32,663 nucleotides of DNA from Actinomycetota bacterium (GTDB lineage: Bacteria > Actinomycetota > Acidimicrobiia > Acidimicrobiales > Microtrichaceae). A program made the translations under genes and the position numbers. The notes beneath the pieces were generated by a model. The model had not been told where the DNA came from, ran no database searches, and was given only the letters and a program-made list of their open reading frames with translations. Below are positions 6,263 through 32,114 of this stretch, piece by piece. The stretch spans positions 1 to 32,663 of the forward strand of contig CAUJEC010000167.1 in the NCBI GenBank assembly GCA_963169245.1, given 5' to 3'. Every line of letters begins with the position of its first letter. Position 1 is the first letter of the stretch.

Positions 6263-7109
6263 CCTGATCGAACACGGCAGGGCGATGGCCGGACCCATCG
6301 TCGGGCTCAGGTGCACCGCCCCCACCTTCGGGCTGCCGTTGAGGAGATGGGCGTCGCTGCTGCCCCTTCTGTGCTTGACTCTGCCGTCCTTGCCCCGGCC
6401 GTGGTTGCCCCTGGCGGGCCTGACCCTGCCGTGGTTGCCCCTGGCGGGCCTGACCTTGTCGCGATTGGCCCTGCCCCTTGCGAACAGCACGGGTCTGACC
6501 TGTGCGGGGACCGCTGCCAGCACGCTCAGCCGCAGCGGCCAAGGCAGCTTCTCCGAGCTCTGACTCTTCAACGGTCGGAGCTGCGAGTCGATCGCGCATC
6601 TTGCCGACCTGCTTGTGCAGCTTCACCAAGGCATTCTCGTACCTTGCGAGTTGCTGGTCGCAGTAGTCGTCGGCCTCTCGGCGCCGACGACGCGAGATCC
6701 GCTCGGCCTCTTCGATGATGGAATCCGCGCGGGCTTGGGCGTTCTTGACTATCTCGCGCTTCTCAACAAGTCTCGCCGCGTTGGTCTTTGCTCGCTCGAT
6801 GATGGCCTGTGCCTCTCGTTCTCTCTCAGCGAGGAACGCCTCTCGGTCCTTCAGCAGCCATTTGGCCTGACGGACCTCCTCGGGAAGACGGTCGAGCGCA
6901 TCGCCGAGCATCTCGAGGATCTCATCCTTGTTGACGCGCACCGTCGAGGACATCGGCATTGATGGCGAGGTGTCAATCAGCTCCATCACCCGCGAGATGA
7001 TCTCGTCCGATTCAGGCATCAGGTAGTCAGTGTCGTTGTCGCCATGACGATCACCGCCACCTGAGTCGGAGGCATGGCCACTGTGTTCGTCGTATCTCGA
7101 TGAACTCAT
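6255..7109 (-). CDS. SepIVA/DivIVA-like coiled-coil protein with G/Q/R repeat tail
   Basis: Protein of 284 residues. The N-terminal 25 residues are polar and disordered. Residues about 55-185 form a charged, continuous coiled coil rich in Glu, Arg and Ala (for example REREAQAIIERAKTNAARLV), as in DivIVA and F-type ATPase b-subunit-like proteins. In mycobacteria the gene beside the yceD homologue is SepIVA (Rv2927c), a DivIVA-like septation protein, so position and architecture both support a division or envelope-growth role. Residues about 200-250 are a low-complexity tail of GQxRQGQ units, followed by a proline/glycine-rich acidic end. A GGAG site precedes the ATG at 7109. The function is inferred from synteny, not from catalytic motifs. 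Confidence 0.75.
   Translation of the reverse strand: MSSSRYDEHSGHASDSGGGDRHGDNDTDYLMPESDEIISRVMELIDTSPSMPMSSTVRVNKDEILEMLGDALDRLPEEVRQAKWLLKDREAFLAEREREAQAIIERAKTNAARLVEKREIVKNAQARADSIIEEAERISRRRRREADDYCDQQLARYENALVKLHKQVGKMRDRLAAPTVEESELGEAALAAAAERAGSGPRTGQTRAVRKGQGQSRQGQARQGQPRQGQARQGQPRPGQGRQSQAQKGQQRRPSPQRQPEGGGGAPEPDDGSGHRPAVFDQDE
6399..6455 (-). repeat. 30-bp tandem repeat in the SepIVA-like tail
   Basis: A 30-bp period: bases 6399-6425 recur exactly at 6429-6455. It encodes two copies of the ten-residue RQGQARQGQP block. Shorter imperfect copies (GQxR units) extend on both sides. Recent slippage-type expansion is likely. Confidence 0.9.
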
Positions 7110-20905: not shown

Positions 20906-20937
20906 TGGTCCCCGGTCAAGGTGTCACACTCCCCTGA

Positions 20938-20943
20938 TAGGTT
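20938..20943 (+). promoter_or_regulatory. Leaderless -10 box for uvrD2
   Basis: TAGGTT fits TANNNT and ends 7 bases before the in-frame GTG at 20951. It lies inside the longer frame from 20921, so it decides between the two starts. Confidence 0.5.
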
Positions 20944-20950
20944 CGCCCGT

Positions 20951-23194
20951 GTGCCCGGATCGCTCTTGGAACTCGATGTGAACTCAAGCCAACCTGAGGA
21001 CCACGAAGGCGGTCGGCAGTCCGACCCCCTAATTCGGTTGCTCAACGAGGCGCAGTTTCAGGCTGTCACCACCGACGCATCCCCTCTGCGTGTTCTCGCA
21101 GGCGCGGGTTCCGGCAAGACCCGAGTGCTCACTCACCGGATCGCTTACCGAGCCCGGAACAACGCACTCGACCCCTCGCGTACCCTGGCGGTCACATTCA
21201 CACGCAAGGCCGCAACCGAGCTTCGCTCACGACTCGCTAGCCTCGGACTGCGTGACGGGGTCACCTCTGGCACGTTCCACTCAATCGCCTATGCCCAGCT
21301 TCGACAGCGCTGGGAGGAACGCGGTGTGCGTCCACCAGAACTTCTCGATCGCAAGGTCAGCTTCGTCAGTCGCCTCATGAGCGCCAAACAGCGCCCATAT
21401 GCAATAGATGTCGTGGGCGAGATCGAATGGGCGGTCGCCAGAATGGTCTCCCCAGAGGACTATGAGCGTGAAGCGCAGCGGGCCGGCCGTTCAACCGCGC
21501 TTGATTCCGGTGCTATCGCATCGATCTACGAGCGATTCCTGAAGGAGAAACTCCGCAAGCGACTGGTCGATTTCGATGATCTGCTTCGACTCGCCGTGCG
21601 CGATCTGGAGGCCGACCCCGTATACGCGGCCGCTCAACAATGGCGCTTCCGACACTTGTTCATAGACGAGTTCCAAGACGTCAACCCTCTGCAGTTCAGG
21701 CTGGTCAAGGCATGGCTTGGACCGGAGTCGGATCTGTGTGCAGTCGGCGACCCGAACCAGGCGATCTACGCATGGAACGGTGCAGATGCGCGATACATGG
21801 TCGATTTCGAGAGCTACTTCCCTGGCGCACACACCATCGTCCTCGACCGCAACTACCGTTCAACCCCTCAAATACTTGCGGTGGCAAATGCTGTACTCGC
21901 CGAGGGGGGTGGCAAGACCTTGATCCGGCTCCGATCCGAACAGCGCGACGGACCGGTCCCGGCAGTCATCAGCCACGACAATGCCACCGAGGAGTCGCGA
22001 TCGATCGCCCGCGAGGTGCGGGACCGTCACTCGCAGGGGAAGGGGTGGTCGCGACAGGCCGTCCTTGTTCGCACCAATGCCCAAGCTCTGCAGATAGTCG
22101 AGGAGTTCAAAAGGAACGGCATTCCTCACACCATCCGCGGGGCAGCGAGTCTCCTGACACAGCCAGAGATCCGCGACGCTCTCACGGTCCTGCGGCAGGC
22201 CACGTCGTTGGACGTCGGACTGGCCGATGTCGAGGACTCTCTACGTCAGCGCGCACCAGGATACTTCGCTCGCCAACAAAGCCAGGCGGCCCGCACCGAC
22301 CCAGAGTCCTCGGAGGGATTGGATCCTCCGAGGCATCCGGACGAACCTGCTTCGACATCGAACCCATCTGACGCCGACGTCTCCATGACCGATGAGCGAG
22401 TGGCGAACCTCTTGGAACTCATCAGACTCGGGCGCGAATACCTCGTTCTGGACCCGACTGGTGGAATCACCGGATTCAACTCGTGGCTACGGTCAACGCT
22501 CCAGGGTGATGACCGCGCGGCGGGCGATGTAGTGGAGGTCATGAGCTTCCACGCCGCCAAGGGACTTGAGTGGCCAGTGGTTCACCTCGCTGGGCTCGAA
22601 GAGGGGTACGTGCCCATCCATCACGCCAAAGAACTGCCGGCCGCAATTGCGGAGGAACGCAGGCTCCTCTACGTGGCCATGACTCGCGCCCGCGAGGAAC
22701 TCATCTGCAACTGGGCCCAGAGCCGTGAGTTCGGATCCAGGTCGGTCAAGCGAAAGCCCTCCCCATGGGTGGAGACGATTCTGAACACGACACAACTGAC
22801 AGCCCCTGCGCTGAGTGGCCAGGCTGGCGTGGCCAGAGCGCGAGCAGCTCGACAGGCAGCGAAAGGTGCTTCGAAGCGTGGCACCTCGCAACGTCAGAAC
22901 ACTGCGGATGGTGGACATCGAATCAAGGGTGGTGATTCGGCTTCAAAGAAGGACCGAATAGCCGCCCTCGGGCCTGACCGCGCCCTCTTCGAGGAACTCA
23001 GGATATGGCGCAAAGCCCAGGCCGACGCAGCAGATGTTCCCGCCTTCGTCGTCTTCAACGACGAGACGCTCATTGAACTGGCTTCCAGACGTCCGAGTTC
23101 GACAGATGAGATCCTCTCTGTAAGCGGCATCGGCCCGGTCAAAGCACATCGTTACTCCGAGGAGCTACTCGCCCTGATCGCGGCGGCCGACTGA
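20951..23194 (+). CDS. uvrD2: UvrD2-like ATP-dependent DNA helicase with HRDC domain
   Basis: SF1A helicase of 747 residues for DNA repair and unwinding. Walker A AGAGSGKT is at 50-57, motif Ia TFTRKAATEL follows, Walker B IDEFQD is at about 238-243, GDPNQAIYAWNGA is motif III, and VMSFHAAKGLEW and VAMTRARE are the late motifs. A C-terminal HRDC domain covers about 675-745 (ISSVSGIGP-type: ILSVSGIGPVKAHRY), which is the UvrD2 architecture of mycobacteria. The linker before HRDC is Ala/Lys/Ser-rich and lacks the tetracysteine motif found in mycobacterial UvrD2. GTG 20951 is preferred because of the TAGGTT -10 box 7 bases upstream; GTG 20921 would add 10 residues. Confidence 0.93.
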   Translation: MPGSLLELDVNSSQPEDHEGGRQSDPLIRLLNEAQFQAVTTDASPLRVLAGAGSGKTRVLTHRIAYRARNNALDPSRTLAVTFTRKAATELRSRLASLGLRDGVTSGTFHSIAYAQLRQRWEERGVRPPELLDRKVSFVSRLMSAKQRPYAIDVVGEIEWAVARMVSPEDYEREAQRAGRSTALDSGAIASIYERFLKEKLRKRLVDFDDLLRLAVRDLEADPVYAAAQQWRFRHLFIDEFQDVNPLQFRLVKAWLGPESDLCAVGDPNQAIYAWNGADARYMVDFESYFPGAHTIVLDRNYRSTPQILAVANAVLAEGGGKTLIRLRSEQRDGPVPAVISHDNATEESRSIAREVRDRHSQGKGWSRQAVLVRTNAQALQIVEEFKRNGIPHTIRGAASLLTQPEIRDALTVLRQATSLDVGLADVEDSLRQRAPGYFARQQSQAARTDPESSEGLDPPRHPDEPASTSNPSDADVSMTDERVANLLELIRLGREYLVLDPTGGITGFNSWLRSTLQGDDRAAGDVVEVMSFHAAKGLEWPVVHLAGLEEGYVPIHHAKELPAAIAEERRLLYVAMTRAREELICNWAQSREFGSRSVKRKPSPWVETILNTTQLTAPALSGQAGVARARAARQAAKGASKRGTSQRQNTADGGHRIKGGDSASKKDRIAALGPDRALFEELRIWRKAQADAADVPAFVVFNDETLIELASRRPSSTDEILSVSGIGPVKAHRYSEELLALIAAAD

Positions 23195-23219
23195 CCGGCT
23201 GCCCAGGCACTCGGAATAC

Positions 23220-23249
23220 ATGCCATCCCAGGGTGCCATCATCGGCGTC
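23220..23249 (+). repeat. 30-nt exact copy of an internal kgd segment
   Basis: These 30 bases are identical to 26995-27024, which are codons 314-323 of kgd (MPSQGAIIGV). The match begins at an ATG and stops at a codon boundary, and the flanks are unrelated. A second copy this long is not expected by chance in a window of this size. Confidence 0.95.
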
Positions 23250-23294
23250 AACGCTGACGGAAGCAGCAATGGCATAAGCTGCCAACAGGACTAG
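23220..23294 (+). CDS. Possible 24-codon leader ORF before parD
   Basis: ATG 23220 opens a 24-residue frame: the ten residues shared with Kgd, then NADGSSNGISCQQD. Its TAG (23292-23294) ends one base before the parD Shine-Dalgarno GCGGAGGA, so ribosomes finishing it would be placed at the parD start. A weak GGA lies 6 bases before the ATG. It may equally be an accident of the duplicated segment. Confidence 0.25.
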   Translation: MPSQGAIIGVNADGSSNGISCQQD

Positions 23295-23310
23295 CGGAGG
23301 AACTGTAACG

Positions 23311-23592
23311 ATGCCCACCCGAAACGTGGTCCTCACCGATCGCCAACAACGTCTCGTCGAGGAACTGGTGTCAACCGGCGAGTATCAGAACGCGAGCGAA
23401 GTCCTACGCGAGGGACTTCGCCTGATCGAGGCTCGTCGTAATTTCGATCGTGAAAAGCTGGATCTTCTTCGAGCGTTGGCCCAACAAGGCTGGGACGACG
23501 AATCTGGGAGCCGCTACATCGACTTGGACGAAGACCAACTGGCTAAGGGCATCGCCCAGCTCCGATTCGGGCCCCGAATAACCCGGGCATGA
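23311..23592 (+). CDS. parD: ParD-family antitoxin
   Basis: Protein of 93 residues. The N-terminus MPTRNVVLTDRQQRLVEELV followed by GEYQNASEVLREGLRLIE is the ribbon-helix-helix domain of ParD antitoxins; the rest is the flexible, acidic toxin-binding tail. It should bind the operon's own promoter and neutralise the ParE toxin. GGAGGA at 23296-23301 gives a strong ribosome binding site. The toxin gene starts 1 bp after its stop, the usual antitoxin-first order. Confidence 0.92.
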   Translation: MPTRNVVLTDRQQRLVEELVSTGEYQNASEVLREGLRLIEARRNFDREKLDLLRALAQQGWDDESGSRYIDLDEDQLAKGIAQLRFGPRITRA

Positions 23593-23593
23593 T

Positions 23594-23947
23594 GTGCAGA
23601 TTCGAATTACCGAGAGCGCCCAGTCAGACATCAACGAAATCCTTCGCTGGACCGCCAACAACTTCGGGGACGAAGCCGCCCAGAGATACCTCGCGTTGGT
23701 CACCGCCGCAATTTTCGACGTTGCAGAGGATCCCGAGCGAGTGGGAAGCATTTCACGCCCCGAGTTAGGACCAGCGGCTATGACCTGGCACCTACGTCTC
23801 AGCCGAAGTCGATCCAGCAGTGAGGTTCAAAGACCGCGCCATTTCCTGATCTACCGAGTCGTCGATCAACACGTCCTGCTGGGCCGAGTGCTACATGACG
23901 CAATGGAGCCTTCTAGGCACATGGGAAGTGACGAGACCTTCGAGTAG
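23594..23947 (+). CDS. parE: ParE-family toxin
   Basis: Protein of 117 residues of the RelE/ParE superfamily; ParE toxins typically poison DNA gyrase. Visible landmarks are QIRITESAQSDINEILRW, the helix AAQRYLALVTAAIFDVAEDPERVG, RPELGP, and the C-terminal YRVVDQHVLLGRVLHDAMEPSRH, where RVLHxxMDPxRH is the family signature. It carries an extra Ser/Arg-rich stretch (RLSRSRSSSEVQRPRH) before the last strands, making it about 20 residues longer than usual. It starts at GTG 23594, directly coupled to parD. The frame is intact, so the module may be active. Confidence 0.9.
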   Translation: MQIRITESAQSDINEILRWTANNFGDEAAQRYLALVTAAIFDVAEDPERVGSISRPELGPAAMTWHLRLSRSRSSSEVQRPRHFLIYRVVDQHVLLGRVLHDAMEPSRHMGSDETFE

Positions 23948-24130
23948 GCGCACCGGTACCAGGAGGAGGCGAACTGCTGCTGTCCAGAACTATTCGCGAT
24001 CTGACATCGCTTCGAACGAACTTCGATAACAGGTGGCTCCGAGCAAGTGCCAGCGATGAGCACTTACGAACCTGCTGCCGGTCTCGCGTGAGCGAGGAAG
24101 TAAGCCGATATGGCCGATCGGTTTCACCAT

Positions 24131-24199
24131 GACATCGGACAGGATCCCCGGGTCGTACAACGCACCGAGTTCGGCCAGCTAGGCGAGCTTGTCATCCAT
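24131..24199 (-). pseudogene. Broken SHOCT-domain remnant
   Basis: Reading the minus strand from ATG 24199 gives MDDKLA, a stop (TAG at 24181-24179), then LAELGALYDPGILSDV. This resembles the SHOCT consensus (KLAxLAELRDxGILTDEEF). The in-frame stop and loss of similarity after SDV mark it as a decayed fragment. Confidence 0.5.
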
Positions 24200-24228
24200 A
24201 CTCGGCCCAGCCTGTGCCGGAGCCGCCG

Positions 24229-24348
24229 CGGGTGACGAGTTGGTTGACCGAGGGGATCGCCGCCTGGAACAACAACCCCAAACCGTTCGTCTGGCACTAG
24301 ACCGCCGAAGAGATCCTTGACAGCCTCAAGAAATAACTAACGAACATC
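24229..24348 (+). pseudogene. IS630-family transposase C-terminal remnant
   Basis: The plus frame reads TEGIAAWNNNPKPFVWH, a stop (TAG 24298-24300), TAEEILDSLKK, a stop (TAA 24334-24336), then LTNI and a stop. This is the typical C-terminus of IS630-type transposases (AWNxNPKPFVWxKTAxEIL). Single-base changes explain both stops (AAG to TAG, TAC to TAA). The catalytic DDE part is absent. Confidence 0.75.
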
Positions 24349-24367
24349 TGACGCGGGACACTGGGAA

Positions 24368-25126
24368 CTAGGACAACTTGTCCCGTTCGTCGAGCAGCGC
24401 CTTGAAATGACCGGGTTCGATCGCAATGAACAGACCCTGCGCCTCCGCAGTCAGAACACCGTCGCATCGGATCTCTCCCCGTGCGTAGATCTTCCGACCT
24501 TCCCGACGGTCGAACCACCCGGTGAGTTGCAACTCCCGCTCCAGGGGCGTCGGACGTCGATAGTCGACGCCTAAGTGGGCGGTCATGCCCTGCGCGCCGG
24601 ACAAGGCCTGTGTAGCCCCTAGCAATTCGTCGAACGCCCCGGCGACATAGCCGCCGTGCACACAGCCGGGCGGACCTTCATAGGCAGAACTGAACGTGAC
24701 GGTCGCCTCAACACGATCCTCGACGTACTCCATGAACAGCGGAGGCGACAGCGGATTGGCGAGCCCGATGAAAGGGCTGTGATCAAAGAAGGTGTTCCAG
24801 CGATCATCACCCGGTTTCACACCCTCGAGCTCTCCCCCAGCGGTGGCCGCCTCGGCAAACCCCTTGTATGTCAACCCGGCTGGCAACTCTCGCAGCAGTT
24901 CACCGAAGGATTCCGCAGCGTCCGCAGCCCGATTGAGTTCCTCGGCACTCGCAGTGGTGCGGGACAACAGATCGATCATCTCACGCAGCCCAGCCGCTAG
25001 TCGGCGTGCGGCTGCCCTCTCGGGGGTCACATCCATGAGGCCGATCCCCTCGACGCGTGGGCTCCTGTTCGGAGCTACGAATGGGATCACCGGCTCGTCG
25101 CGCTCGACATCTTGTTGACTACTCAT
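24368..25126 (-). CDS. PaaI-type hotdog-fold thioesterase
   Basis: Protein of 252 residues. The C-terminal half is a hotdog domain of the PaaI family with the signature CVHGGYVAGAFDELLG at 155-170, where the His-Gly-Gly loop and Asp166 are the expected catalytic elements; it would hydrolyse an acyl-CoA thioester. The N-terminal 100 residues form a mainly helical extension (RRLAAGLREMIDLLSRT) with no recognised domain, common in actinobacterial members. The start at 25126 has GGTGAGGA upstream. It lies 55 bp downstream of exoA on the same strand. The substrate is unknown. Confidence 0.88.
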   Translation of the reverse strand: MSSQQDVERDEPVIPFVAPNRSPRVEGIGLMDVTPERAAARRLAAGLREMIDLLSRTTASAEELNRAADAAESFGELLRELPAGLTYKGFAEAATAGGELEGVKPGDDRWNTFFDHSPFIGLANPLSPPLFMEYVEDRVEATVTFSSAYEGPPGCVHGGYVAGAFDELLGATQALSGAQGMTAHLGVDYRRPTPLERELQLTGWFDRREGRKIYARGEIRCDGVLTAEAQGLFIAIEPGHFKALLDERDKLS

Positions 25127-25181: not shown

Positions 25182-25955
25182 TCACACGTCGAAGAGTCCG
25201 AGCACCGGAGCATGGTCCGATGGCTTGGTGCCCTTTCGGGCGTTGCGGTCAACCAGGTCCGCTTTCGACTTGGCCGCAAGTGAGGTGGACGACAGTAGGT
25301 AGTCGATTCGCATGCCTCGACGCTTGTGGAAGTCTCCATTGCGGTAATCCCAGAAGCTGTAGATTCCCGGGATCGGGTACCGCTGTCGGAGAGTGTCGAC
25401 GAGTCCCCAGTCGACAATGCGATCGATCGCATCCCGTTCGGGCTTGCTGACGTGTGTCATCCCCTCGAACGCCTTCGGGTTCCAGATGTCGATGTCGGTC
25501 GGTGCCACGTTCCAGTCTCCAAGGATCACAAGGTCCTCATCTGGAGTGTGATGACGGTCCAGATGATTCCGCAATCGAGCGAGCCATGAGAGCTTGTACT
25601 GATAGTGGTCGTTGGTCAGTTCCCGGCCATTTGGGACATAGACGCTTGCGACTCGCACTCCTCCACAGGTTGCCCAGACGATTCGGGAATCCGGATCGGG
25701 TTCCTCTCCATCGTCGAAGCCGTAGTGCGCAGCCTCAAGTCCAACCTTCGAGAGGATCGCGACACCGTTCCAGCGACCCTGTCCGAAATGGACCGAGTCG
25801 TAGCCCAGGCGGGCGAAGTCGAGACCGGGAAACTGGACGTCGGTCATCTTGGTCTCCTGCAGACACAGGACATCCGGCTGAACTCCCTCGAGCCACTCGA
25901 GCACCCGGGGCATTCGGGCGTTGAGCGAGTTCACGTTCCAGGTCGAAATCAACAC
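25182..25955 (-). CDS. xth: Exodeoxyribonuclease III
   Basis: AP endonuclease and 3'-5' exonuclease of base-excision repair, 257 residues. The motifs match the ExoIII fold: WNVNS with Asn7, LQETK with Glu34, GDWNVAP with Asp147 and Asn149, and SDHAPV with His248, the metal and catalytic residues. The GTG start at 25955 lies 7 bases after a TAGATT hexamer, pointing to a leaderless transcript, and gives the standard start MLISTWNVNS. It is divergent from kgd, with a 100-bp shared upstream region. Confidence 0.95.
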   Translation of the reverse strand: MLISTWNVNSLNARMPRVLEWLEGVQPDVLCLQETKMTDVQFPGLDFARLGYDSVHFGQGRWNGVAILSKVGLEAAHYGFDDGEEPDPDSRIVWATCGGVRVASVYVPNGRELTNDHYQYKLSWLARLRNHLDRHHTPDEDLVILGDWNVAPTDIDIWNPKAFEGMTHVSKPERDAIDRIVDWGLVDTLRQRYPIPGIYSFWDYRNGDFHKRRGMRIDYLLSSTSLAAKSKADLVDRNARKGTKPSDHAPVLGLFDV

Positions 25956-26055: not shown

Positions 26056-29000
26056 GTGGCCGATGAGCATGCCCCCGAAACTCTTGGACCGAACGCCTGG
26101 CTGGTCGAGGAGATGTACGAGAAGTACGTAGCCGACCCCCAGTCTGTGAATGACACCTGGAGGGAGTTCTTCGCCGGTTACAAGCGATCAGCCACCGGCG
26201 GGGTCAACACCGGAACGGCCGGAGTCACAACCACGAATGTCGACACAGCGACTGCGGCAGCAGCGGCATCGGTCACCGGAGCGACCCCACAGATCACCTT
26301 GGCTCAGGCCACGCCTGCACCGGCATCCTCTGGGAGCAGCCCATCCTCGGCGACAAGCGCTGCCGTTGCGACCAAACCGGCCGCCGCAGCACCTGCAGCC
26401 GCGACACCCAAGGCAGCGTCGACACCCAAGGTAGCGTCGACTCCATCGGGTAACGGCTCGTCCGCGCCCGTTGAACCAACCGGCGAACCGATCAGGGGCG
26501 CTGCATCACGAATCGTCACCAACATGGAGGCCAGCCTCGAGATCCCGACGGCAACCTCCTACCGAGAGGTCCCCGCCAAACTGCTCGAGATCAATCGCAG
26601 GGTCATCAACGGCTACCTAGGCCGAACGTCGGGTGGGAAGATCAGCTTCACCCACGTCATCGGGTACGCAATAGTTCGCGCTGTCGCGGATCACGTCCCG
26701 AACATGAACAACGCTTTCACCACCGACGCCGATGGCAAGCCGCTTCTCATCCGCAATGACCATGTCGGACTCGGAATCGCCATCGACTTGGAGAAGCGTG
26801 ACGGCACCCGGTCACTTCTGGTTCCTTGCATCAAGAACGCCGAGTCCATGGACTTCTCAGAGTTCAAGGCCGCATATGACGACCTGGTCCGCAAGGCGAA
26901 GACCAACAAGCTCGCCGTCGAGGATTTCGCCGGGACGACGATCACCCTAACCAACCCGGGAACCATCGGCACCGAGAGAAGCGTTCCGCGTCTGATGCCA
27001 TCCCAGGGTGCCATCATCGGCGTCGGGTCGATGGACTACCCGACCGGTTTCGCTGGAGCCGATCCCGCTGCCATCGCCAAGCTAGGCCTGTCCAAGGTGA
27101 TGACGATCTCGTCGACCTATGACCACCGGATCATTCAGGGCGCCGAGTCAGGTCTGATGCTCAAGAAGGTCGCCGAGTTGTTGATGGGCGACGGTGACTT
27201 CTACGAGGAGATCTTCAAGTCGATCGGCGTTCCATACGAGGCGGTCCTCTGGCGACAGGACGTGAACCCGCCCGACTCGGCCGACGGTGGCGATACCCAG
27301 CTTCGTAAGCAGATGCAGGTTGCGACGCTCATCAACATGTACCGAGTTCGCGGACACCTCATCGCAGACCTCGATCCGCTGTCAGCCAAACAGCCCGAGA
27401 TGCACCCGGAGTTGGATCCGGCGACCTATGGGCTGACCATCTGGGACCTCGATCGCGAGTTCCTGACCGGTGGTGTCACCGGGATCTATGCTCCAGTCGG
27501 CGGGGTGTCGAAGATGCCTCTGGGTGACATACTCCATGTGCTTCGCGACGCTTATTGCCGCACAATAGGCATCGAGTTCATGCACATCCAGGACCCCAGT
27601 GAGAAGCGCTGGATCCAGGAACAGGTCGAGGGCGCCAGCACCAAGCTGCCGGTGGACGACCAGCAACACATCCTCGACAAGTTGAACGCAGCCGAGGCGC
27701 TCGAGAAGTTCCTGGCGACCAAGTACGTAGGAGCGAAGCGTTTCGGACTCGAAGGCGGAGAGTCACTCATCCCGATTCTCGACGCGATCCTTGAGGCAGC
27801 GGCCGATGCCGATCTCGACTCGGCCTATATCGGCATGCCTCACCGCGGCCGACTCAACGTGCTGGTGAACATCGTGGGCAAGTCGTATGCCAAGTTGTTC
27901 CGCGAGTTCGAGGGCCATGTCGACCCCGACTCGATTCAGGGCTCCGGTGACGTCAAATACCACCTGGGACAACGTGGCACCTACGAGTCCCGCTCCGGCG
28001 GTCGCCTGCCACTGACCCTGGCGGCCAACCCGTCTCACCTCGAGGCGGTCAACCCGGTCGTCGAGGGAATGGCCAGAGCCCGCATGGACGCCATCCCCCA
28101 GGACCAGACCCGCGCCTTCCCGGTTCTGCCGATCCTGATGCACGGCGACGCCGCCTTCGCCGGGCAGGGGGTTGTGGCCGAGACTCTCAATCTCTCGGTC
28201 ATCAAGGGTTACCGAGTCGGCGGAACCATCCACGTGGTGGTCAACAATCAGCTCGGCTTCACGACCCCCCCGGAGTCCGCGCGCTCATCCGACTACTCCA
28301 CCGATGTCGCAAAGACCGTCCAGGCCCCGATCTTCCATGTCAACGGGGATGACCCCGAAGCATGTGTCCGCGTGGCTCGACTCGCGTTCGAGTATCGCCA
28401 GAAGTTCCACAAGGACGTCGTCATCGACATGGTGTGTTACCGACGCCACGGTCACAACGAGGGGGATGACCCCAGTTACACCCAGCCCCTCATGTACCAG
28501 CGGATCGAGGCACTTCGTAACGTCCGCATGCAATACGTCGAGACGCTTGTCCGGCGTGGCGACTTCAGCCTCGAAGAAGCGGAGGTGGCACTGCAGAACT
28601 TCCATGGCCGTCTGCAGCAGGCTCTTGACGAGACCCGACAGTCGGCACCTGAAAAAGAACATGTCGCCGCTCCGCATCCGCCGCTCGAGGGGGTTCTACC
28701 CCACATCGAGACGGGTATCTCGATGGAAGACATCAACTCCATCTATGGCGTGCTCAGCACAGTTCCCGAGGACTTCACCGTTCACCCCAAACTCGCAAAG
28801 CAGTTCCAGACGCGTGATGCGATGCTCGCCGGCGGCACAGTCGACTGGGCACTCGCCGAGGCGCTCGCATTTGGAAGCCTCCTCAAGGATGGCAAGTCGT
28901 TCCGACTCGCCGGCCAGGACTCTCGACGTGGCACGTTCTCGCATCGACACTCGACTCTCTTCGACTACCACACCGGAGCAGAGTACACGCCGCTGATTCG

Positions 29001-29898
29001 CATGCCGCGCAAGAACAATGCGCAGATGTGGATCTACGACTCGCTGCTCAGTGAATACGCCGCTCTCGGGTTCGAGTACGGGTATTCGGTTCAGAACCCT
29101 GATGCCCTCGTCATGTGGGAGGCACAGTTCGGCGACTTCGCCAACGGTGCGCAGATCATCATCGACCAGTACATCGTTGCCGCTGAGGACAAGTGGAAGC
29201 AGCGGTCCGGCCTGGTGCTCCTCCTCCCCCACGGTTACGAAGGACAGGGCCCCGAGCATTCCTCTGCCCGGCTCGAGCGGTTCCTCACGCTCTGCGCCGA
29301 GGACAATATCCAGATCTGTGTGCCCACCAACGCAGCACAGTTCTTCCACCTGCTTCGCCGTCAGGTGATGCTCGAGGAACGCAATCCGCTCATCGTCATC
29401 ACGCCCAAGTCCGGACTGCGGGACAAGCGTTGGAGATCACCAGTGGAGCGTCTCACCGAGGGCAACTTCTTGGAGCTGATACCCGATCGGTCACAGGATA
29501 TCGATCCTTCCACGGTCAAGCGACTGGTCCTCACCGCAGGAAAGATTGGCCATGAGGTGGCGACTCTGCGCGACGAGATGAAGGAGAACATCGCCGTGGC
29601 CCGGGTTGAACAACTCTACCCGTGGCCCTATGCCGCGATCGCCGAGTACATCTCACAGTTCCCGCAGCTCTCCGAACTGATCTGGCTGCAGGAGGAGCCC
29701 GAGAACATGGGCGCCTGGAACTCCATCAAGGGCCGCCTCTACGAGACGCACGGCTCAAATCTGACCATCAGGCGGATCAGCCGCCCAGACGAGGCAAGCC
29801 CAGCTACGGGTAGCCACAAGATCCACGCTCAGGAGCAGGACTTGATTCTTGTTGCGGCACTCTCGCCGCTTCAGCCCAAGAAGACCATCTTCCGCTGA
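26056..29898 (+). CDS. kgd: Multifunctional 2-oxoglutarate metabolism enzyme (Kgd/OdhA type)
   Basis: Protein of 1280 residues that fuses an E2-like succinyltransferase domain to the E1 component of 2-oxoglutarate dehydrogenase, the actinobacterial arrangement. It decarboxylates 2-oxoglutarate with ThDP and passes the product to lipoyl carriers. Order: the E1 N-terminal helix (LVEEMYEKYVADPQSV, 1-50); an Ala/Thr/Pro linker (50-140); the E2 catalytic domain (about 145-375) with the DHRxxxG motif YDHRIIQGAESG, catalytic His357; then E1 (about 395-1280) with the ThDP site HGDAAFAGQG at 696-705 and NNQLGFTT. There is no lipoyl domain, as in the family. GTG 26056 is set by the TAGGCT box upstream. 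It is followed by a hairpin in the convergent HAD gene. Confidence 0.97.
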   Translation: MADEHAPETLGPNAWLVEEMYEKYVADPQSVNDTWREFFAGYKRSATGGVNTGTAGVTTTNVDTATAAAAASVTGATPQITLAQATPAPASSGSSPSSATSAAVATKPAAAAPAAATPKAASTPKVASTPSGNGSSAPVEPTGEPIRGAASRIVTNMEASLEIPTATSYREVPAKLLEINRRVINGYLGRTSGGKISFTHVIGYAIVRAVADHVPNMNNAFTTDADGKPLLIRNDHVGLGIAIDLEKRDGTRSLLVPCIKNAESMDFSEFKAAYDDLVRKAKTNKLAVEDFAGTTITLTNPGTIGTERSVPRLMPSQGAIIGVGSMDYPTGFAGADPAAIAKLGLSKVMTISSTYDHRIIQGAESGLMLKKVAELLMGDGDFYEEIFKSIGVPYEAVLWRQDVNPPDSADGGDTQLRKQMQVATLINMYRVRGHLIADLDPLSAKQPEMHPELDPATYGLTIWDLDREFLTGGVTGIYAPVGGVSKMPLGDILHVLRDAYCRTIGIEFMHIQDPSEKRWIQEQVEGASTKLPVDDQQHILDKLNAAEALEKFLATKYVGAKRFGLEGGESLIPILDAILEAAADADLDSAYIGMPHRGRLNVLVNIVGKSYAKLFREFEGHVDPDSIQGSGDVKYHLGQRGTYESRSGGRLPLTLAANPSHLEAVNPVVEGMARARMDAIPQDQTRAFPVLPILMHGDAAFAGQGVVAETLNLSVIKGYRVGGTIHVVVNNQLGFTTPPESARSSDYSTDVAKTVQAPIFHVNGDDPEACVRVARLAFEYRQKFHKDVVIDMVCYRRHGHNEGDDPSYTQPLMYQRIEALRNVRMQYVETLVRRGDFSLEEAEVALQNFHGRLQQALDETRQSAPEKEHVAAPHPPLEGVLPHIETGISMEDINSIYGVLSTVPEDFTVHPKLAKQFQTRDAMLAGGTVDWALAEALAFGSLLKDGKSFRLAGQDSRRGTFSHRHSTLFDYHTGAEYTPLIRMPRKNNAQMWIYDSLLSEYAALGFEYGYSVQNPDALVMWEAQFGDFANGAQIIIDQYIVAAEDKWKQRSGLVLLLPHGYEGQGPEHSSARLERFLTLCAEDNIQICVPTNAAQFFHLLRRQVMLEERNPLIVITPKSGLRDKRWRSPVERLTEGNFLELIPDRSQDIDPSTVKRLVLTAGKIGHEVATLRDEMKENIAVARVEQLYPWPYAAIAEYISQFPQLSELIWLQEEPENMGAWNSIKGRLYETHGSNLTIRRISRPDEASPATGSHKIHAQEQDLILVAALSPLQPKKTIFR
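26995..27024 (+). repeat. kgd copy of the 30-nt repeat
   Basis: Codons 314-323 of kgd, in the conserved SQGAIIGVG strand of the E2 domain. It is identical to 23220-23249 upstream of parD, 3775 bp away in the same orientation. Confidence 0.95.
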
Positions 29899-30707: not shown

Positions 30708-32114
30708 ATGCCCGATTCACACCTCGTCGTTGACGGATCCAATATTGCTACCGAGGGACGAACAGTGCCCTCGCTCGCGCAGCTCGACGAGGCTGTGCGC
30801 ACGTTCACGTCCGAATACGATTACGACAACGTCATCGTCATTGTCGACGCAACCTTTGCTCACCGGATCGATCCATCGGAGCGGGAGATGTACGAAGAGG
30901 CGATCGTGGCCGGCGAGATGCTCACTCCCCCGGCTGGTGCCATCGGCAGGGGGGATGCCTTCGTACTGGAGATTGCCGACCGTTCCGGTGGAGCGGTCCT
31001 CTCCAATGATTCGTTCCAGGAGTTCCACGCAGATCACGAATGGCTCTTCGACGAAGGCCGACTCTGGGGAGGCAAGCCAGTACCGGGCATCGGTTGGGTG
31101 TTTGTGACGAGGCTCCCTGTCAGAGGGCCTGCCTCGCATAGGAGCAAGGCCTCTGCCGCCCGGAAACACAAGTCGTCAACAGGGACGGAGACAAAGTCGT
31201 CACGAGCCAAGGGCGGGTCGTCCAAGGCTGGCTCCGCGACGGGATCGGCTGCAGCGAAGGTTTCGAGATCAAAGACATCCGCGGCCAAGCCATCAGCGTC
31301 CAAAGACGTTGCACCCAAGTCAAATGCGCCGAAGGCAGCCGTTGCTAAGACAACAACACCTCGCAAGGCCGTCGCCGGTGCGAGCAGACCGAAGATCGGT
31401 GACACAATTCCAGTTGCGTCGCCGACAGCGGCCTCTAAGCCACAGGCCAGTGGATCGAGAGCGAAGAAGGGTGACACTCACAACACTCCGGCTGTCTTCC
31501 TGGCGTTCGTAACCGATCACGCCGTCGGCAACCAGGTCGAGGGCGAGGTTGTCGAGTTCTCATCTCATGGCGCCTACGTGCTTTCTGACGGCGCTCGCTG
31601 CTACATCTCTCTCAAGTCGATGGGCGACCCCCCACCCAAGAGCCCTCGTGAGGTGCTCAAGGTTGGAGAGAATCGCTCCTTTGTCGTGCAAGGTTTCGAT
31701 ACTCCACGTCGTGGAGTTGACCTTGCGCTACCCGACCTCATCTCGGTCGGGGTCCAACAGGCAGGTGAGTCCGAAATCTCGTCGGCGCGTACGTCGTCGA
31801 GGTCAGGTTCATCGGCCGTCGACCAACCCCTCCTGACACAGGGGGATGCCGAGGAGGCAACAGTGGCAACAGCCAAGAAAGCACCAGCAAAGAAAGCAAC
31901 GCCAGCTAAGAAGGCTCCGGCCAAGAAAGCGGCACCAGCTAAGAAGGCTCCGGCCAAGAAAGCGGCACCAGCTAAGAAGGCTCCGGCCAAGAAGGCCCCA
32001 GCCAAGAAGGCAGCACCAGCCAAGAAGGCAGCACCAGCCAAGAAGGCCCCAGCCAAGAAGGCCCCAGCCAAGAAGGCAGCACCAGCCAAGAAGGCCCCAG
32101 CAAAGAAGAAGTAG
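30708..32114 (+). CDS. NYN-domain (Zc3h12a-like) ribonuclease with S1 domain and lysine-rich tail
   Basis: Protein of 468 residues in three parts. Residues 1-140 are a NYN/PIN-type RNase domain: VVDGSNIATEG (Asp9, Asn12), VIVDATF (Asp47), GRGDAFVL (Asp83) and LSNDSFQEF (Asp101) supply the acidic metal site. A Ser/Lys/Ala-rich linker follows to about 265. Residues about 274-342 look like an S1 RNA-binding domain (VEGEVVEFSSHGAYVLSDG, then GENRSFVVQGFDTPRRGVDLAL, read in parts). The last about 70 residues are KKAPAKKA repeats like histone H1 or mycobacterial HupB. ATG 30708 starts right before the nuclease fold; ATG 30648 would add 20 residues. Neither has a good Shine-Dalgarno site. The likely role is RNA cleavage or processing near nucleic acid (inference). 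Confidence 0.85.
   Translation: MPDSHLVVDGSNIATEGRTVPSLAQLDEAVRTFTSEYDYDNVIVIVDATFAHRIDPSEREMYEEAIVAGEMLTPPAGAIGRGDAFVLEIADRSGGAVLSNDSFQEFHADHEWLFDEGRLWGGKPVPGIGWVFVTRLPVRGPASHRSKASAARKHKSSTGTETKSSRAKGGSSKAGSATGSAAAKVSRSKTSAAKPSASKDVAPKSNAPKAAVAKTTTPRKAVAGASRPKIGDTIPVASPTAASKPQASGSRAKKGDTHNTPAVFLAFVTDHAVGNQVEGEVVEFSSHGAYVLSDGARCYISLKSMGDPPPKSPREVLKVGENRSFVVQGFDTPRRGVDLALPDLISVGVQQAGESEISSARTSSRSGSSAVDQPLLTQGDAEEATVATAKKAPAKKATPAKKAPAKKAAPAKKAPAKKAAPAKKAPAKKAPAKKAAPAKKAAPAKKAPAKKAPAKKAAPAKKAPAKKK
31872..32111 (+). repeat. Tandem repeats encoding a KKAPA tail
   Basis: Repeats of 15-18 bp arranged in higher-order units; one 33-bp unit is repeated exactly at 31905-31937 and 31938-31970. They encode AKKAPAKKAAP-type sequence, and the coding frame is kept throughout. 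The array is coding and lacks CRISPR-like spacers. Confidence 0.9.

Follow-up and report, generated by a model that had tools for sequence, protein, structure and literature searches.

Introduction

Templated insertions and filler DNA are known mainly from eukaryotic repair by polymerase theta, an enzyme that is not known from bacteria. In 2016, Harms et al. reportedly showed that short-patch double illegitimate recombination (SPDIR) gives short patches from intragenomic templates, and we know of few reports of such patches outside laboratory systems. SPDIR has been described in bacteria and is lenient in its requirements for sequence identity (PMC7192050).

Here we describe a window, by which we mean the whole analysed stretch of 32,663 nt from an actinomycetotal contig (CAUJEC010000167.1, family Microtrichaceae), in which a short piece of the central-metabolism gene kgd recurs beside a parDE toxin-antitoxin module. 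The locus resembles SPDIR products in two respects: it has a short patch with an exact ectopic template (30 of 30 nt from kgd, set between isolated flanks), and this template comes from the same genome or a near relative, as the kgd genes of relatives differ at 5-9 of the 30 positions where they can be aligned. It also resembles the filler DNA of end-joining junctions, in that a short exact copy of a nearby locus sits at a junction with foreign DNA, and differs from that class in that Ku was not detected in the source assembly, which is 87% complete. The adjoining module is like horizontally acquired chromosomal parDE loci in its parD-parE order, its operator overlapping the -10 box, its neighbouring IS remnant, and its patchy distribution.

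Results

A direct-repeat search of the window showed that positions 23220-23249 (ATGCCATCCCAGGGTGCCATCATCGGCGTC, forward strand) are identical at all 30 positions to 26995-27024, in the same orientation and at a spacing of 3775 nt. The source segment, also on the forward strand, lies inside kgd (26056-29898, forward strand), which encodes a fused multifunctional 2-oxoglutarate dehydrogenase/decarboxylase of the E2-E1 type, and it corresponds to codons 314-323 (MPSQGAIIGV) within the E2-like acyltransferase domain (PF00198, kgd residues 142-376). Outside the repeat, identity is at chance level (30% to the left and 23% to the right, with 40 nt compared on each side). The exact match between unrelated flanks, as given in the preliminary description, was thereby reproduced, and so was its judgement that a chance match of this length is negligible: when the window was simulated 100 times under a third-order Markov model, the longest dispersed direct repeat measured 13-18 nt, against the 30 nt observed. 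The copy is real and non-random.

Searching the whole 2.7-Mb assembly with up to three mismatches returned only two copies of the 30-mer. In a sample of unmasked sequence from the same genome (approximately 380 kb), the kgd repeat was the only isolated dispersed exact match longer than 21 nt, where isolated means neither inside a longer repeated element nor part of a contig-end overlap; the other matches above this length were tandem duplications, a repeated element (L091/L096), and a contig-end overlap. The sample covers few of the genome-wide pairs, and we therefore describe the repeat as unique locally only, not genome-wide. Short tandem duplications of approximately 15-60 nt are numerous in this genome, and examples were seen at 6398-6455 of the window and on several sampled contigs.

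An artefact of the metagenome-derived assembly, by a false join or wrong gap filling, has to be considered given its draft state (239 contigs, 87% complete) and the fact that no second assembly of the same species was found. We regard it as unlikely: the contig runs through both copies and leaves kgd intact, an explanation by false joining has to assume two wrong junctions only 30 nt apart, and the operator and the IS terminal repeat beside the copy are intact and natural.

The exact 30-mer is absent from the genomes of other species and from viral contigs. In the kgd genes of relatives, the homologous 30-mer carries 5-9 mismatches where it is alignable, with six in the single congener, whereas the copy matches its source without error. 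The template was therefore the kgd of the organism's own lineage (or of a near-identical strain), not an imported kgd.

The copy lies at the left edge of a lineage-specific insertion. Readable relatives share a gene order that we take as ancestral, in which a uvrD-like helicase gene is followed by a convergent thioesterase gene, by xth in the same direction as the thioesterase, and by kgd in the direction of uvrD; a HAD hydrolase and an NYN/S1 protein then follow kgd in several of them. In the window, the NYN/S1-domain protein bears a lysine/alanine-rich repeat tail of AKKAPAKKA units (31829-32107). The corresponding genes here are the uvrD-like helicase with an HRDC domain (20921-23194, forward), a thioesterase of the 4HBT family (24368-25126, reverse), and the exodeoxyribonuclease III gene xth (25182-25955, reverse; PF03372, TIGR00633), which stands between the insert and kgd. 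Measured between aligned ends, the gap between uvrD and the thioesterase gene is 22 nt in the congener (G001) and approximately 36-109 nt in eight other genomes, whereas 1173 nt separate their stop codons in the window. The insert of approximately 1.17 kb (23195-24367) is missing from the congener and from most relatives, and this conserved synteny identifies it as specific to the lineage. From left to right it comprises an unassigned stretch of 25 nt (23195-23219) that has no match elsewhere in the genome, then the kgd copy and a leader, followed by parD, parE, approximately 280 nt, and what is left of the 3' end of an IS630 transposase gene. At blastn sensitivity, the rest of the insert likewise has no match in the organism's own genome.

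A member of another genus (G032) carries an unrelated ORF of 508 aa between uvrD and the thioesterase gene (L042, 2284-3810), and the spacing from uvrD to kgd looks enlarged in two further genomes (G015 and G002), which suggests that insertions may recur at this gap.

The right border of the insert is an IS end. The 3' part of a transposase gene of the IS630 family persists at 24232-24362 (forward), decayed by an in-frame TAG and an in-frame TAA, and the right terminal inverted repeat of the element (CTGACGCGGGACACT, 24348-24362) is intact. Intact IS630 elements of Rhodococcus and of one relative from the family carry a terminal inverted repeat that CTGACGCGGGACACT matches, which places the border at the IS end, with only five bases left before the stop codon of the thioesterase gene. 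The stretch of approximately 280 nt between parE and this relic (23948-24231) has no recognisable open frame, coding content, or origin. Within the kgd copy, CATCCCAGGGTGCC loosely resembles an IS end; an IS630 end at that place was ruled out, as intact IS630 ends read AGTGTCC..CTAG.

These remains show that deletions have happened at the locus, and they lend some support to the view that a larger duplicated segment of kgd once stood at the same spot and subsequently lost both of its ends to deletions. We consider this rather improbable, although likelier than the other alternatives. Neither side of the 30 nt retains residual similarity to kgd, the insert holds no other kgd-like stretch, and the trimming would need two independent deletion breakpoints that spared an error-free 30 nt. 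The same pattern, a perfect copy between flanks at chance identity with no further kgd match in the insert, speaks against an earlier suggestion that the copy is the remnant of a second E2-like gene.

To the right of the copy lies a ParDE module, with a ribbon-helix-helix (RHH) ParD antitoxin gene (23311-23592, forward; PF03693, TIGR02606), then a ParE-family toxin gene (23594-23947, forward; PF05016), and a palindromic operator TGGCATANNNTGCCA over the promoter at 23270-23284. The preliminary description had already remarked on the placement of the copy beside a toxin-antitoxin pair and decayed mobile DNA. No ParE relatives were found in 32 other genomes of the family or in 396 others of the order (the two sets overlap), and no close relatives occur in the genome contigs or viral contigs searched; the nearest related proteins that we found are encoded on proteobacterial plasmids (up to approximately 51% identity). 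Judged from this distribution, the module was most likely acquired horizontally. PADLOC gave no match for parDE as an anti-phage system.

The operator is well defined by comparison. We examined 13 homologues of parD from Alpha-, Beta-, and Gammaproteobacteria (L120-L132), and 12 of them have the palindrome TGGCATAnnnTGCCA or a one-base variant approximately 25-70 nt before the start codon; in the remaining one (L126) the palindrome has diverged further and reads TTGGCTAGAATGCCAA. The palindrome of the window (TGGCATAAGCTGCCA, forward strand), which includes a -10-like CATAAG at 23273-23278, shows no mismatch to TGGCATAnnnTGCCA, where 0.07 matches would be expected at one mismatch or fewer. The motif is near-invariant upstream of a parD subfamily whose members have an MxTRNVVL N-terminus and which is found on proteobacterial plasmids and in the source genome. 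As a by-product, the analysis thus yields a parD operator motif common to both.

With the conserved operator at 23270-23284, the kgd copy is not part of the operator and adjoins the promoter on its outer side, toward uvrD. Given a 17-nt spacer, the -35 position would fall at 23250-23255, directly after the copy, and the parD transcription start is expected at approximately 23285. The copy does begin with an ATG and end at a codon boundary, as the preliminary description had noted. Within kgd, however, this ATG is an internal Met codon, and beside parD it precedes the predicted start of transcription; we take both features to be coincidences. A mini-ORF that begins at this ATG (MPSQGAIIGVNADGSSNGISCQQD, 23220-23294) was considered as a leader peptide and rejected: it has no Shine-Dalgarno sequence, and, because its ATG precedes the expected transcription start, it would not be in the parD message.

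The position next to the expected -35 box raises the question of whether the copy has been kept as an extension of the parD operator or as upstream promoter DNA, since it adds two TGCCAT half-sites beside TGGCATAAGCTGCCA, and the half-site of the operator reads TGCCA. Repressors of the ParD family may occupy extended operators in oligomeric form (PMC8251345), and the 116-nt leader holds six TGCC/GGCA sites where 1.1 are expected, a number reached by 0.15% of same-size pieces. This test was chosen post hoc, though, and the enrichment is not significant after correction over all 4-mers (approximately 0.14). The operator itself accounts for two of the six sites, and the kgd sequence brings in another two. 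The half-sites of the copy are moreover direct and 13 nt apart, in contrast to the conserved GGCA-N5-TGCC arrangement, and homologous parD genes do without such an extension. Retention in this role is accordingly quite unlikely, and we give still less credence to the fuller proposition that a fragment of kgd, once captured, was retained as a parDE promoter element, be it for extra ParD half-sites or for upstream promoter DNA. Were it true, a piece of a central-metabolism gene would have become part of a toxin-antitoxin switch. The fragment also sets this leader apart, as no kgd-like segment is present in any of the other parD upstream regions examined.

A second functional proposal, that the minus strand of the copy is transcribed into an antisense RNA directed at kgd mRNA, appears very improbable. 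The complementarity over 30 nt is perfect by construction, as it would be for any copy and its source, and it is not evidence for such a role. A search for signs of antisense or small RNA gave no promoter-like site, no fold better than those of shuffled sequences, and no Rfam match, and the target would lie far inside the kgd coding region.

Discussion

The exact copy of the organism's own kgd stands at the seam between host and inserted DNA, beside the parDE operator. We infer, as the simplest account, that it is probably a templated short-patch insertion at the insert junction, SPDIR-like or filler left by a template switch, and that it has no function. The preliminary description had listed an integration or recombination scar among its explanations, and the comparison with relatives favours that option, with the copy at the left seam of a parDE and IS630 insert that they lack.

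In outline, the patch would have arisen when the parDE/IS630 DNA entered between uvrD and the thioesterase gene, or in a later event at the same seam. The ectopic template may have been a short single-stranded piece or a switching nascent strand, either of them with kgd sequence, and its trace would be the 30 nt of kgd at the left junction. Such a patch would be dispensable to parDE, whose own operator lies just to its right, and it shows no sign of regulating kgd. Microhomology at the edges, as considered for SPDIR, was sought in the present flanks, which do not represent the seam before the event, and these show no similarity to the kgd flanks beyond chance.

No Ku gene was found in the source genome or in the congener, while Ku is present in 9 of 33 genomes of the family. 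This is a mild argument against classical end joining, tempered by the 87% completeness of the source assembly. Since the IS630 relic is decayed and the 30 nt are free of errors, the patch and the IS event need not be one, and the patch may be the younger of the two.

The locus has no evident functional novelty. Its interest is as a clean natural example, from a wild bacterium, of what is probably a short ectopic patch, one whose source, orientation, and insertion context can all be read. Surveying the borders of acquired modules for such patches would tell how commonly gene gain goes together with illegitimate, templated repair.
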